From contig JAIOYZ010000034.1 in NCBI GenBank assembly GCA_021740845.1, forward strand, positions 1 to 34,014: 34,014 bases of DNA, given 5' to 3'. A program made the position numbers and the translations under genes. Position 1 is the first letter of the stretch. The number at the start of each line of letters is the position of its first letter. This document shows, one piece after another, positions 19,761 through 24,715 of this stretch. Origin of the DNA: Bacteroidia bacterium. GTDB lineage: Bacteria > Bacteroidota > Bacteroidia > UKL13-3. The notes beneath the pieces were generated by a model. The model was not told the DNA's origin and made no database searches. It saw nothing but the letters and a program-made list of their open reading frames with translations.

Positions 19761-20495
19761 ATGGGAAAAACGAGTAAAGCATTAGCTAAAAAATTTGGGC
19801 AACTAAAAATATTTGTTGGGAAAATAGCACTAATAGCATTCCAAGTAAGTCTATTTTTTATTATCCTATACCGAGTAGTACCTGTTCCTATTACACCACT
19901 TCCATTGGTTAGATTATTTGAACAGGCATTTGGTGACGACCCTGTAAGGCTAAAAAAAGATTGGGAAAGCATAGAAAGTTTAGGTAGAAATATTTGTTTA
20001 GCAAGTGTTACCTCGGAAGATCCTAAGTTTTTCCAACATTATGGATTTGATTTTGAGCAAATAATAGAATCTTTAAAAAAGAGTTTCGATAAGGGGAAAA
20101 GACCAAGGGGAGCCAGCACAATTACTCAGCAAACTGCTAAAAATCTATTTTTCACTCCACGCAGGAGTTGGCTAAGAAAAGGTTTAGAAGTTTACGTTAC
20201 TGTTTGTTTGGAGTTATTTTGGACAAAAAAGAGAATCCTAGAAGTATATTTAAATATTATTGAAATGGGTAACGGTGTTTATGGAGCAGAGGCAGCTTCC
20301 TTATATTATTTCAACAAATCATCCGGAAAGCTTACAGCAAATGAGGCAGCGGCCATCGCAGCATGTTATCCAAACCCAAGGAGATGGAAAGCCAATAAGC
20401 CTTCAAGATATATTAAAAAGAAACAAAACCTTATAGCTAGGTATATGTATAGAATTGGTTCATTACCTTGGGAAAACAAAAAGAAACCTAAATAA
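19761..20495 (+). CDS. mtgA: Monofunctional biosynthetic peptidoglycan transglycosylase
   Basis: 244 residues. A basic N-terminus is followed by one transmembrane helix (about 20-40). The glycosyltransferase family 51 domain has the catalytic Glu at E86 in TSEDPKFFQHYGFD, the RGASTITQQTAKNLF motif (116-130) and ILEVYLNIIEMG (159-170) with the second conserved acid. It polymerises lipid II into glycan strands at the periplasmic face without a transpeptidase domain. Length fits MtgA. Its neighbours are envelope genes, including two barrels with peptidoglycan-binding tails just downstream on the other strand. It ends in a perfect terminator. Confidence 0.94.
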   Translation: MGKTSKALAKKFGQLKIFVGKIALIAFQVSLFFIILYRVVPVPITPLPLVRLFEQAFGDDPVRLKKDWESIESLGRNICLASVTSEDPKFFQHYGFDFEQIIESLKKSFDKGKRPRGASTITQQTAKNLFFTPRRSWLRKGLEVYVTVCLELFWTKKRILEVYLNIIEMGNGVYGAEAASLYYFNKSSGKLTANEAAAIAACYPNPRRWKANKPSRYIKKKQNLIARYMYRIGSLPWENKKKPK

Positions 20496-20523
20496 AAAAA
20501 GCCTGATTAATCAGGCTTTTTTT
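20494..20523. terminator. Bidirectional terminator mtgA / ompA-like
   Basis: A perfect 30-bp palindrome: A7, GCCTGATT, AATCAGGC, T7. It overlaps the mtgA stop and ends 5 bp before the stop of the convergent OmpA-family gene. Confidence 0.92.
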
Positions 20524-20528
20524 ATTTA

Positions 20529-22031
20529 CTATTTTTCTCTTAAATCTTCTGTATCCACACGAGGTTGTCGTTTTTCAACTGGTCTTATGATTCTAAATTC
20601 AACCTTTCTATCCAAACCTTCTGTACTTATTTGATACTTTTGAACGTAAGGGTCTTTAGAAGAGTAAACCAACATTCTTTCTTCGTCAATTTCATAAACT
20701 TTAAACAATTTACGCTTTACTTCTAAAGCACGGCGTTCTGCCAAAGTTAATTGAGTAAGGTTTGGTTTATTATTATCAGCATGACCAATAATTACTAATG
20801 AAGCTGATGTGTCAATCATTAGAATCCTTGCAATTTGTTGAAGTAAATTAAATTGTTCTACATGCACTGTAAACCTATTTGGCGGGAAAATAATAGTAGG
20901 TAATCCAAAGCCACTTTTAGAAATTGTTACAAAACCATCTTGGGGAATAGAATCATTAAACTTATAAATATTTTCTGAAGAATCATTACCATTACCCAAT
21001 CCTGAAGGGAAATATAAACCGACAGTTTTCCCAAAACCATATGGATCTGGATCAATCGTATCAGGTATCCCATCTCCGTCACTATCTAAAGTAACACCTT
21101 TGTTGTCTACTTTATAACCTTCTTTGGTATTGGGTTCTTGATCAAAGAAATCTGGAACACCATCTTTATCGGTATCATTTTTCATAGCCTCCGCCTGGTC
21201 CTTAGCATCCTTTAAATCTCTATAAATTTTATCAATTGGGTTACTCCAATCTATATGTTGAGGTTTCTTTTTTGTAGTTAAATTGTAAACCACTGTTGCA
21301 ACTAAATATCCATTTCCATCAGGTAAAGAACCTGCCAATGGCAATAAATCTAAATTATCATTTGAACCTAGTAAGTAATTAAACTCTAAACCTACATCAA
21401 TACTTTTACTTATCTTACGTTTATATCCAATTGTAAGAGGTATAGCCAACATATTCTCGCTAATTTTCAAAGTATTATTAGAAGGAGTATCAGGATTTTC
21501 TCTTGTTCCATTAACATTTTGCAATGTTGCTCCAAAACCAAAATAAAAATTATTTCTTGGGAAACTCTGGCGAAAATCTACGCTACCGATATTGAAAAGC
21601 ATTTGCAAAGTAAAGTCTTGTACAACTGTGTGATAACTTGCATTGTATAAAGATTTTTTGGTGTTAGGGGCACCAGAAAATTTACCATGTAAATATTGAA
21701 AACGTAATCCAGCAACGTGACTAAAGGAGTATTTCACGTAGCCCCCAAATCCAGGATACATAGCATCTGCAGGCACATCTGTTGCTCCAAATGCCATACC
21801 AAATTGGCCACCAAATGACAACCTAGCATAGCTAGTTGGAGGGATAATATTTAGGGTATCTCCTACAGTTGACTTCTTTGCAGGAGCATTTGTTTTGGAA
21901 TCATTCAAAACACTCATGTCGGGATTTTCTAACTTCATCTCCGACCCTCGTTTATCTTTGGCGGGGGTGGTTTGAGCAGTTGCAGTAACTACAAAAAAAA
22001 CCAAAAACCCTATTAAAAAATTAGTTCTCAT
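20529..22031 (-). CDS. OmpA-family outer-membrane protein with calcium-binding repeats
   Basis: 500 residues. A signal peptide (about 1-20, ending ATAQ) and a low-complexity linker precede a beta-barrel (about 65-255: FGGYVKYSFSHVAGLRFQYLHGKF, DFTLQMLFNIGS, FYFGFGATLQ, IDVGLEFNYLLGSND). The marker HIDWSNPID closes the barrel. Two thrombospondin-3-like calcium repeats follow (DTDKDGVPDFFDQEP and DSDGDGIPDTIDPDP). The C-terminal OmpA domain (about 380-490) has VIIGHADNN and LAERRALEVKRKL, which bind peptidoglycan. The barrel is related to those in the upstream gene (86 bp away, same strand), so the two probably form a unit. Confidence 0.9.
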   Translation of the reverse strand: MRTNFLIGFLVFFVVTATAQTTPAKDKRGSEMKLENPDMSVLNDSKTNAPAKKSTVGDTLNIIPPTSYARLSFGGQFGMAFGATDVPADAMYPGFGGYVKYSFSHVAGLRFQYLHGKFSGAPNTKKSLYNASYHTVVQDFTLQMLFNIGSVDFRQSFPRNNFYFGFGATLQNVNGTRENPDTPSNNTLKISENMLAIPLTIGYKRKISKSIDVGLEFNYLLGSNDNLDLLPLAGSLPDGNGYLVATVVYNLTTKKKPQHIDWSNPIDKIYRDLKDAKDQAEAMKNDTDKDGVPDFFDQEPNTKEGYKVDNKGVTLDSDGDGIPDTIDPDPYGFGKTVGLYFPSGLGNGNDSSENIYKFNDSIPQDGFVTISKSGFGLPTIIFPPNRFTVHVEQFNLLQQIARILMIDTSASLVIIGHADNNKPNLTQLTLAERRALEVKRKLFKVYEIDEERMLVYSSKDPYVQKYQISTEGLDRKVEFRIIRPVEKRQPRVDTEDLREK

Positions 22032-22117
22032 ACAATGGGACTTTGCAGTAAAAATATCTGCTAAGTTACCCCATTATATGAGAACTAGGAAATTTCTAAT
22101 ATTCAGTTATCTACAAA

Positions 22118-24055
22118 CTACTGTGCATTGTACAAATACATCCAAGAATATGGATCTATTTCTTTTCTAGCTTTTCTTAATACTTTTAATGCTTCAGCTT
22201 TATCATCGGTAGAGATTACTGCCAATCTTAATAATTTAGATGCATTTGAGCTTCTATATATACTTGGCTCATAACCCTTTCTTGCCAACCTTGCTTTAGT
22301 ATTTTCTGCTACAGCTAATTTATTTACACTATAACAACCTACGATAACATTGTACTTAGCTGGTGGAGGTGTAACCTCATCTGTTGCAACATATTCTGGT
22401 GTAGCAGGCTTAGGAGTTACAACAGGTGCTGGTTTTGGAGCAGGTGCTGGTTTTGGTGCAGGAGCCGGCTTAGGAGTTGGAACTGGAGTTGGTTGAACAA
22501 ATGGTTTAACTGGCTCTGGAGTTGGCTCAACAACTGGTGTTGGTTCAACAACAATTGGTTCTGAAACTGGCTCAACAGGTGCAACTACCGCCATTTTAGT
22601 AGTATCTATTTTAGGTTCCTCTACTGCAGGTTTCTCAATTACTGGTACTTGTTCAATTGTGGTAGTTTTGTCTTTATAATTGTTATAATTAGAATAAGAC
22701 CAATCAATATGCTCTCTATCCTTATTGGTACCAATTTTATACGTAACACCAGTATGGAAGTACAAATGGTTATTTAAATTTTTCTTATCATAACCAAAAT
22801 CTAACCATTTAGATTGGTTATAACTAAAATCTACCCCAGCAATTAAGTCAAAATTATGGGTTAAATATTTTCTTGCCTCATACCCTATTACAATTGTTTG
22901 AATTCCTGGTTTTCTGGAAATTTTAGCATCCTTGTAAGATAATCCACTCGCAAATGTAGCGTCACCTTTTGCCCCCATATAGCCACCACCAACTATGGCA
23001 TAATGGTTCCATATTGCTCTTGTTTGGGATTCTCCAGACAAATTTCTAATATTAAAATAAGCTCTTAAGGTAAATTGGTTAATTTTCGTTTTAAAATCTT
23101 TAACCGCATCTGGCGAACCTATTGCAGGTGTACCCGAAATATCTTGAGTCCCTTTAAATGCACCGTGAGAATAATTTAATTGCAATCCCATTGCTTTATT
23201 AAATGAATATCTAGCTCCTAGACCAAGCATTCCAGTAATCTTATGCCCCACAGGAGTGAAAAGAAACGGCAAACCTATTGTTCCGTCAATCGCCATTTTA
23301 CTATAATCCTTAGCACTTTCATTCGGATTCTCAATATTTTTATGACTCCAATCTACCAAATTATTCCAAGGTTTGGCTCCTAATTTAATTGAAACTCCTG
23401 CATAAAAATTCAAATATTGATCCAATTTTGGGTTAGTAGCTTCCTGTAAAGCATCCAACCAATAAGTTTCACTTACATGGTATTCAACTCCCCCAAATAA
23501 ATCAATATTTGAATTTAAATAATATCTTGTCCCAAAACCAATTTGAAAATCTCTGTAAGGTTTTCCAAATTCCCTCTTAACCATTTTTGCACCATTAGCA
23601 TATGTGGCGTTAGGTTTGTACCAATTGTAACCCGCTCCACCGTTTATGAATGGCAACCATCTTGAATCTGGCGTTCTATTTAGCCCAAAAATATTGTGCA
23701 AATTATAATATACAACACCCGTTAATCCATAAACAGGGGTACGATAGGAAATTACATCAGAAGGAGTTCCATCTAAAGTCGTTTTCTTTGGATTACCAGT
23801 AGCATTGTTGTAAAAGGTATTTGATGTTAACTTGGCTTCCAAAGACCAGGTTTTGTTAAACGAGTATCTTGCAGAACCTGTATAAATACCAACCATCTTA
23901 GACTTAACAGAGAATAAGGTAACTGGAATACCCATACCTACTCCAACTGAAAGTTTTGGTGCTCTATCTTGAGCGAAGACGCCTAGGGAAAAAGTTAATG
24001 CCAACAAAAGTGCAATTCGTTTTCGAGCAAAGGTTAATTTAGTAAAGAGTCTCAT
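22118..24055 (-). CDS. Tandem beta-barrel outer-membrane protein with Pro-rich linker and SPOR domain
   Basis: 645 residues from the ATG at 24055 (MRLFTKLTFARKR...), signal peptide ending GVFAQ. Two related barrel units follow. The first (about 30-235) contains ARYSFNKTWSLEAKL, GGAGYNW, RYYLNSNIDLFGGVEY, WLDA and NLVDWSHKN. The second (about 255-465) contains ARYSFNKAMGLQLNYSHGAFKG, GGGYMG, RKYLTHNFDLIAGVDF, WLDF and HIDWSYSN. A Pro-rich spacer (Val/Glu-Pro then Pro-Lys-Pro-Ala repeats) leads to a C-terminal SPOR domain (YNVIVGCYSVNKLAVAENTKARLARKGY), which binds denuded glycan strands. A longer reading to 24184 overlaps the divergent methyltransferase and lacks the signal peptide at its front. 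I infer an outer-membrane to peptidoglycan tether. Confidence 0.85.
   Translation of the reverse strand: MRLFTKLTFARKRIALLLALTFSLGVFAQDRAPKLSVGVGMGIPVTLFSVKSKMVGIYTGSARYSFNKTWSLEAKLTSNTFYNNATGNPKKTTLDGTPSDVISYRTPVYGLTGVVYYNLHNIFGLNRTPDSRWLPFINGGAGYNWYKPNATYANGAKMVKREFGKPYRDFQIGFGTRYYLNSNIDLFGGVEYHVSETYWLDALQEATNPKLDQYLNFYAGVSIKLGAKPWNNLVDWSHKNIENPNESAKDYSKMAIDGTIGLPFLFTPVGHKITGMLGLGARYSFNKAMGLQLNYSHGAFKGTQDISGTPAIGSPDAVKDFKTKINQFTLRAYFNIRNLSGESQTRAIWNHYAIVGGGYMGAKGDATFASGLSYKDAKISRKPGIQTIVIGYEARKYLTHNFDLIAGVDFSYNQSKWLDFGYDKKNLNNHLYFHTGVTYKIGTNKDREHIDWSYSNYNNYKDKTTTIEQVPVIEKPAVEEPKIDTTKMAVVAPVEPVSEPIVVEPTPVVEPTPEPVKPFVQPTPVPTPKPAPAPKPAPAPKPAPVVTPKPATPEYVATDEVTPPPAKYNVIVGCYSVNKLAVAENTKARLARKGYEPSIYRSSNASKLLRLAVISTDDKAEALKVLRKARKEIDPYSWMYLYNAQ
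22400..22590 (-). repeat. Proline-rich repeat spacer inside the SPOR protein gene
   Basis: Degenerate tandem units encode EPTPVVEPTPEP then PKPAPAPKPAPAPKP; the boundaries are approximate. The repeat is coding and in frame, likely a rigid spacer crossing the periplasm. Confidence 0.7.
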
Positions 24056-24065
24056 AGTTTTATTG

Positions 24066-24098
24066 TTTGCGACAAAGGTAATAATATTTTTATGTTTG
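24066..24098 (+). promoter_or_regulatory. Promoter of the SpoU methyltransferase gene
   Basis: TTTG (24066-24069), 21 nt, TATGTTTG (24091-24098); the leader would be about 50 nt. It overlaps the divergent promoter at 24073-24102. Confidence 0.5.
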
Positions 24099-24102
24099 CA
24101 AA
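24073..24102 (-). promoter_or_regulatory. Promoter of the barrel-SPOR / OmpA unit
   Basis: Minus strand TTTG (24102-24099), 18 nt, TACCTTTG (24080-24073), exact at both boxes. It starts transcription close to the ATG at 24055, which supports that start. Confidence 0.6.
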
Positions 24103-24154
24103 GTAAAGAAATCCTTACAAAATTGGGATTACCAGATAATAAATCAAACCTACC

Positions 24155-24715
24155 ATGAGCTACCAAAAGATTACCAATTCTCAACTCAACCGCTTATCAA
24201 TTGAAAACTTCAAATCATCCGATAAAATTGATATTCAAATAGTTTTAGACAACCTTAGAAGTGGTCATAATATTGGTTCAATTTTTAGAAGTTCAGATGC
24301 ATTTTTAATTAAAAAAATTTTCATATGTGGAAATTCAGCTGTTCCCCCAAATAAAGAAATCATAAAAACTGCCTTAGGCGCTACAGAAACAGTTGAATGG
24401 GAGTATTTTGAAAACACTTTGGACGCAATTGAATACCTAAAAACATCCGGTGTTTCAGTTTTTGCGATTGAACAAGCAAAAAATAGCATTTCTCTTGAAA
24501 ATTTTACAATTAAGGATTATCCAAAATTGGCCTTAGTATTTGGAAATGAAGTAGATGGAGTTGATCAATCTGTAATTGATGCCTGCAATGGATGTATTGA
24601 AATTCCCCAATTTGGGACAAAACATTCATTAAATGTATCTATTAGCTCTGGGATTGTACTTTGGCATCTTGTAAACCAAAAAATTGAAAATCTTAAGCTT
24701 AATGAGTCGAAATAA
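24155..24715 (+). CDS. SpoU/TrmH-family RNA 2'-O-methyltransferase
   Basis: 186 residues, the compact SPOUT form without an RNA-binding extension. All three SpoU motifs are present: DNLRSGHNIGSIFRSSDAF (32-50), LALVFGNEVDGV (125-136) and IEIPQFGTKHSLNVSISSG (148-166), which together form the knotted SAM site. It methylates a ribose in tRNA or rRNA; the exact target (such as tRNA position 18 or 34) cannot be told. It overlaps the convergent bshC by 17 bp at the 3' ends, so there is no room for a terminator between them. Confidence 0.9.
   Translation: MSYQKITNSQLNRLSIENFKSSDKIDIQIVLDNLRSGHNIGSIFRSSDAFLIKKIFICGNSAVPPNKEIIKTALGATETVEWEYFENTLDAIEYLKTSGVSVFAIEQAKNSISLENFTIKDYPKLALVFGNEVDGVDQSVIDACNGCIEIPQFGTKHSLNVSISSGIVLWHLVNQKIENLKLNESK

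Follow-up and report, generated by a model that had tools for sequence, protein, structure and literature searches.

What is the function of two adjacent genes that carry related outer-membrane barrels but end in different domains of cell-wall-binding families, and from where did one of them obtain its second barrel? The question is raised by a locus on contig JAIOYZ010000034.1 (GenBank assembly GCA_021740845.1) of a Bacteroidia bacterium, of which positions 1 to 34,014 were analysed (34,014 nucleotides, hereafter the window). The upstream gene, A, encodes two barrels followed by a SPOR domain, and the downstream gene, B, one barrel followed by an OmpA domain. The reading that we favour, at somewhat better than even probability, is that A and B are outer-membrane anchors built on one barrel family and provided with different wall-reaching tails; we infer membrane insertion, wall binding and a mechanical role for both.

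The coordinates and domains assigned to A and B by a first-pass annotation match open reading frames (ORFs) on the minus strand of the window; the ATG start of A is internal to a longer ORF (22118-24184). The features are as follows.

22118..24055, minus strand: gene A (645 residues), with signal peptide, barrel 1, barrel 2, Pro-rich spacer and SPOR
23318..23968, minus strand: barrel 1 of A, residues 30-246, 8 strands (AlphaFold strands between residues 35 and 224)
22718..23314, minus strand: barrel 2 of A, residues 248-446, 8 strands (AlphaFold strands between residues 254 and 441)
22358..22669, minus strand: Pro-rich spacer of A, residues 463-566, probably disordered
22133..22354, minus strand: SPOR fold of A, residues 568-641 (PF05036 match and secondary structure)
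22334..22336, minus strand: Cys574, with no other cysteine in the window's A; conserved in the presence of B
20529..22031, minus strand: gene B (500 residues), with signal peptide, barrel, TSP3-like repeats and OmpA
21246..21827, minus strand: barrel of B, residues 69-262, 8 strands (AlphaFold model, structure match and profile comparison)
21036..21179, minus strand: TSP3-like Asp-rich repeats of B, residues 285-332
20586..20894, minus strand: OmpA-type domain of B, residues 380-482, with D419 and R434 (PF00691)

The three barrel units

The two barrels of A (b1 and b2) showed 29% identity over 212 residues, with a local alignment score of 250 compared to a maximum of 58 in 300 shuffles, and b2 and the B barrel showed 27% identity over 208 residues (score 132, shuffle maximum 63). 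The direct pairwise alignment of b1 and the B barrel was not significant (45, shuffle maximum 69); in profile-profile comparison this pair reached an E-value of 7e-14 (98% probability), with 4e-40 for b1 and b2 and 3e-23 for b2 and the B barrel. The common descent of the units that the first-pass annotation had proposed was thus upheld, by pairwise alignment for b1-b2 and b2-B and by profile for b1-B. Of 15 further barrel-type proteins from this genome that served as a control, 11 yielded probabilities of at most 8.5% against b1, b2 and the B barrel. Those matching at least one unit (maximum 96.4%) were PorG (L139), an adjacent PorG paralogue (L121) and two barrel-TSP3-OmpA proteins (L118, L123). 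The 15 did not include A and B themselves, repeats of the same genes (L127, L128, L140, L142, L144), larger proteins (L134, L136, L137) or a stop-containing frame (L126). Since the units match each other far more closely than they match most barrels of their own genome, the shared motifs are specific, and a generic barrel or strand-pattern similarity is ruled out by this control. By these comparisons, b1, b2 and the B barrel appear to form one subfamily within a wider PorG/OmpA-like set.

In Pfam, A matched OMP_b-brl (47 bits) and SPOR (PF05036, 23.7 bits, cut-off 21). The AlphaFold model of A was based on 26 sequences and had a mean predicted local distance difference test score (pLDDT) of 79 and a predicted template modelling score (pTM) of 0.49. 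With so low a pTM, the model does not say how the parts are placed relative to one another. A single 16-stranded barrel was rejected because the model shows 8+8 strands instead. Residues 31-225 align to the 8-stranded NspA (Z 16.6) and residues 249-446 to an OmpA model (Z 17.8), and A is accordingly modelled as two separate 8-stranded barrels in one chain. Most of the spacer had a pLDDT below 50, whereas the SPOR region showed the order beta-alpha-beta-beta-alpha-beta in blocks of pLDDT 81-94. The highest-ranking whole-chain Foldseek matches of A, mostly FadL and OmpG, were disregarded (root-mean-square deviation about 16 to 22, query TM-score about 0.2 or less). Sequence searches of solved structures yielded nothing convincing for A; a sporulation amidase (1x60) and FtsN were weakly matched by the SPOR region, alongside chance matches.

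B matched the Pfam OmpA family with 28.7 bits (cut-off 27.2) and remained below the cut-offs of DUF6089 (19.1, cut-off 23.2) and, by far, TSP_3 (12.8, cut-off 25). The AlphaFold model of B (22 sequences, mean pLDDT 63) contains one 8-stranded barrel, which matches OmpA (E 1.5e-10), and is of low confidence past residue 343. In the TSP3-like repeats, the 8 Asp positions tested were Asp in 22 of 22 orthologues. Only OmpA/Pal-type domains were found for B among solved structures by sequence.

The two tails and the proposed function

PF00691 was found in all 22 B orthologues (E 0.01), and D419 and R434 were both kept in each of them. The spacing of the pair is that of D241 and R256 in Escherichia coli OmpA. 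The family match and the D/R pair agree with the peptide-stem tail claimed for B at first reading, and as a probable stem-peptide anchor B is well supported by its family. Its 8-stranded barrel would sit in the outer membrane, the Asp-rich, probably calcium-binding repeats would act as a spacer, and the OmpA domain would grip the diaminopimelate of peptide stems. A is proposed, with weak support, as an anchor with a modified SPOR. Its two complete barrels would be joined on the periplasmic side, where both ends of a barrel with an even number of strands come to lie; the flexible Pro-rich spacer of about 100 residues would then carry a single modified SPOR fold, with the wall or a partner associated with it as the binding target. 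With two barrels per chain, the one tail would have a membrane foot that is wider and slower.

According to the RlpA structure work (PMC6895207), SPOR domains bind denuded glycan, and their one highly conserved ligand residue is a glutamine. The corresponding residue of A is 571 (PF05036 model position 8, placed by the ungapped start of the Pfam match). At residue 610, which our own alignment puts in the place of a ligand arginine, 24 of 26 A-type proteins have R and two have K. Several observations weigh against the favoured reading. Residue 571 is I in 13 and V in 13 of the 26 A-type proteins, so that the glycan-binding glutamine is absent; only 10 of the 26 reach the Pfam SPOR family at E 0.01; the model of B gives its OmpA tail a pLDDT below 50; and four of the 64 genomes of the window's family that were surveyed have B without A (G004, G012, G024, G035), A being dispensable there. 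(The survey was sorted by hand, and several genomes are incomplete, which makes absences less sure than presences.) Another SPOR of the same genome (L063) also lacks the glutamine by reading, so that its absence may mean less in this phylum. Of the denuded-glycan reader seen by the first-pass annotation, family and fold therefore stand, and as the glutamine is not kept, only a SPOR fold is claimed for A.

The same residues bear on a septal tether, in which the SPOR of A would sit on denuded glycan at division sites and so fasten the outer membrane to the wall as it constricts, with B tethering along the whole cell length. The family match, the glycan binding of SPOR domains and the basic residue at 610 agree with it; the replaced glutamine, its absence from L063 notwithstanding, does not, and the relatives whose gene orders were compared show no division gene linked to the pair. 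We regard a septal tether as unlikely.

Cys574 was present in 20 of 20 double-barrel proteins; past residue 31 it is the sole cysteine in 15 of them, and five have one extra. Across the loci compared, a cysteine occupies this site in 30 distinct A-type ends, all from B-bearing lineages, whereas A, T, S or G is found in 18 distinct ends from loci without B, a split that may reflect a single change on the tree. The A-type gene of G085, missed by the search expression, also has the cysteine. The residue aligns to the Ala273 site of RlpA, next to the glycan, and is thus part of the SPOR fold itself, without a free tail around it.

A conserved and mostly lone cysteine would suit A as a PorG-like, force-coupled protein of gliding or type IX secretion that is fixed through this residue, in the manner of PorG and SprF, to a track protein in motion (GldK, for example). 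Disulfides between PorG/SprF and GldK are documented (PMC12635249), A and B are recognised by the PorG model of NCBIfam (42.6 and 43.8 bits), the profile kinship to the genome's PorG is 96% for the B barrel and 68% for b1, and the genome has a GldK over the cut-off in which, by reading, a KGC motif supplies a cysteine. The scores of A and B are, however, far under the PorG cut-off of 130, b2 reaches just 2% against PorG (though 92% against the PorG paralogue), and the genome has its own PorG over the cut-off with a cysteine near the C-terminus. In addition, the 22 B orthologues have no conserved cysteine, A is missing in some relatives, and the position of Cys574 within the fold differs from a free-tail attachment. 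A PorG-like role is thus considered quite improbable. Two PorG-type genes neighbour each other in the window's genome (L121:1381-2367, 125 bits, and L139:1447-2235, 146 bits, to the PorG model).

A bolder reading, to which we give very little credence, would have the SPOR on the double-barrel foot of A work without the glycan glutamine by means of Cys574 in the former glycan groove, as a disulfide anchor to a periplasmic partner, possibly a track protein. A would then be one case of a barrel family that freely swaps its wall-binding heads (OmpA, SPOR, TSP3-like plus SPOR, perhaps SH3b).

Distribution in relatives and origin of the second barrel

Both genes occurred in 31 of the 64 family genomes and were adjacent in all 31. 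The double barrel was found in 28 of the 64, with B adjacent in 28 of 28 (contig ends split three of these and leave another one open), and a single-barrel A beside B in two (G034, G085), with G086 cut by a contig end. Barrel-SPOR genes without B were present in 14 genomes (in G025 and G036, cut by contig ends, the barrel number is open), and neither gene type in 15. An automatic tally of 42 for B included seven matches from two genera that end before the OmpA part and were not counted as B. All 32 of 32 titled loci were metagenome-assembled genomes of Bacteroidota members, and the window's genus is not known to have a cultured strain. The paired system suggested at first reading thus holds as adjacency wherever both genes occur and is conserved in part of the family, not throughout; an obligate pairing is not supported, given B alone and barrel-SPOR genes without B.

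Within the window's genus, B was present in 19 of 19 genomes and A missing in two, with relic-like pieces of A adjoining B in G004 (E 0.002) and G012 (2e-4 and 0.008). These relics beside an intact B are at L038:2400-4115 and L082:6400-7300; none were found in G024 and G035. The barrel number also varies inside one genus, with single barrels in G034 and G085 and double barrels in the others. Such losses and variation would suit a division of roles in which B is the working anchor and A a variable surface protein, redundant in part, with barrels that count for what they display outside and with a vestigial SPOR. Against this, the A-type sequences from B-bearing genomes retain both Cys574 and the SPOR motif, and by reading the Pro-rich spacer and SPOR are present in 18 of 18 double-barrel alignment rows. 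Such a division of roles is judged to have a low probability.

A class-wide survey of 396 genomes gave matches at 1e-15 in 19, of which 15 belong to the window's family (G004, G024 and G035 only via the barrel of B); three candidates per genome were scored, and distant double barrels may be missed at this setting. A search by gene order recovered only the window's family. The four matches outside the family have a related barrel and different ends: OmpA in L184 (88.8 bits), TSP3-like plus SPOR in L183 (19.3 bits, just under the cut-off), a weak SH3_3 in L178 (16.8 bits, cut-off 27) and a TSP3-like end by reading in L181, with no Pfam tail. Profile kinship of the barrels was 98.8% (L183), 99.1% (L181) and 98.7% (L184) to B, and 98.8% for L178 to s2, one of the barrel-SPOR genes described below. 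The gene at L183:793-2343 encodes a single chain with a barrel, TSP3-like repeats and an end resembling SPOR, and so mixes features of A and B.

In six loci (L109, L110, L111, L113, L114, L116), two barrel-SPOR genes, s1 and s2, flank trmH/spoU. In a tree of 77 barrel units, in which long branches were flagged, the B barrels formed one group (support 100/100), as did b1 (97/93), and s1 and s2 grouped together beside b1 (94/87). Regarding b2, 19 of 20 units formed one group (99/98), and the b2 of L072 and the single barrel of L074 were unplaced near the base. A clade of b1 and b2 was rejected by the approximately unbiased test (p-AU 0.004) with L074 left outside and not rejected (p-AU 0.31) with this single barrel from a B-bearing genome included. 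The groupings expected from a fusion, b1 with s1 (p-AU 0.29) and b2 with s2 (p-AU 0.15), were not rejected either. The SPOR of A forms one family with that of the s2 genes, a group that includes L074 (hhalign 100%, 5e-38), and is more distant from that of the s1 genes (92%, 7e-7); this membership fits both histories. The second barrel may hence have arisen either by duplication inside the gene, the route proposed at first reading, or by fusion of neighbouring barrel-SPOR genes, and the tree is compatible with both. In G085, the first barrel is gone and an apparent inter-barrel linker is kept by reading, a remnant that suggests barrel loss.

The locus and its known counterparts

A and then B are flanked by trmH/spoU (24155-24715, plus strand) and mtgA (19761-20495, plus strand). 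MtgA, near which the first-pass annotation had placed the system, is indeed the neighbour by position, but a link beyond this is not supported: mtgA is on the other strand and convergent, with a terminator-like hairpin in between. Among 20 relatives whose gene orders were laid out, mtgA adjoins B in six (G003, G015, G005, G004, G024, G035), and other genes take its place in five that have the pair (G027, G043, G022, G023, G034); of the others, G044 ends at a contig end and eight are without B. The partnership with MtgA was rejected as evidence on these grounds, and TrmH/SpoU is the more constant neighbour. The hairpin separating the convergent mtgA and B has 18 pairs (20489-20528) and was reported on both strands. 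Nothing scored above the Rfam gathering threshold within 20400-24300.

The junction between A and B holds one further feature.

22023..22086, minus strand: inverted repeat between A and B with arms at 22070-22086 and 22023-22039, the 3' arm holding the start codon of B

The gap is 86 bases long; the inverted repeat has 17 pairs, and a T run comes after its 3' arm, within B. When 17 junctions from the window's genus and L102 were aligned, 94% of the cells were paired, and sliding the partner lowers this to 33-46%. Changes on both sides were seen in 7 of the 17 pairs, which was equalled by 1 of 500 shuffles. The motif TAnnTTAGC in the hairpin loop is invariant in 17 of 17 junctions and is close to TAnnTTTG, the -7 element of Bacteroidota promoters. 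By reading, the structure differs in eight further junctions, of which six have a GCCC/GGGC terminator-like hairpin and two another hairpin. The covarying hairpin around the start codon of B makes simple co-expression doubtful and argues against one simple operon; as a terminator, a mask of the start codon or a promoter in its loop, all of which are possible, it may separate A and B into two transcription units or mask B in the A transcript. Directly past the stop codon of A, at 22107-22115 of the window, is TGTAGATAA, which by reading was also found in all 24 junctions inspected, including genera with a different hairpin.

Compared with known systems, B shares with OmpA/OprF-type proteins a barrel, a spacer and an OmpA domain in which the D/R pair is kept, but its barrel belongs to the subfamily shared with A and its OmpA domain is a weak match. 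Multi-barrel outer-membrane proteins are said to have been described by Solan et al. in 2021, and a two-barrel model has been put forward for GfcD. As modelled, A resembles these in having two complete barrels per chain and differs in that its barrels are homologous, 8-stranded and followed by a spacer and SPOR. With FtsN, DamX and RlpA it shares the fold and Pfam family of the tail and a disordered spacer ahead of it, whereas its SPOR is borne by barrels, not by a membrane helix, and has the glutamine replaced. PorG/DUF6089 proteins of type IX secretion are distant barrel relatives of A and B, both of which have extra tails. A BamP-type subunit of BAM, considered because of a match to 9n2d, was set aside, as the accessible part of PMC12611786 shows no such domain layout. 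No paper on a barrel-SPOR fusion in this phylum was recognisable by title or the start of the abstract in the literature within reach, most subscription papers being beyond it.

The A-B pair is a lineage-specific variant of known anchor proteins. It exemplifies one Bacteroidota outer-membrane barrel family with differing types of wall-binding tail and with one or two barrels per chain, and it makes testable what a second barrel contributes to an anchor and whether a SPOR without the glutamine binds denuded glycan. Even if the pair should prove ordinary, two conserved genes without a name would have obtained a likely role.

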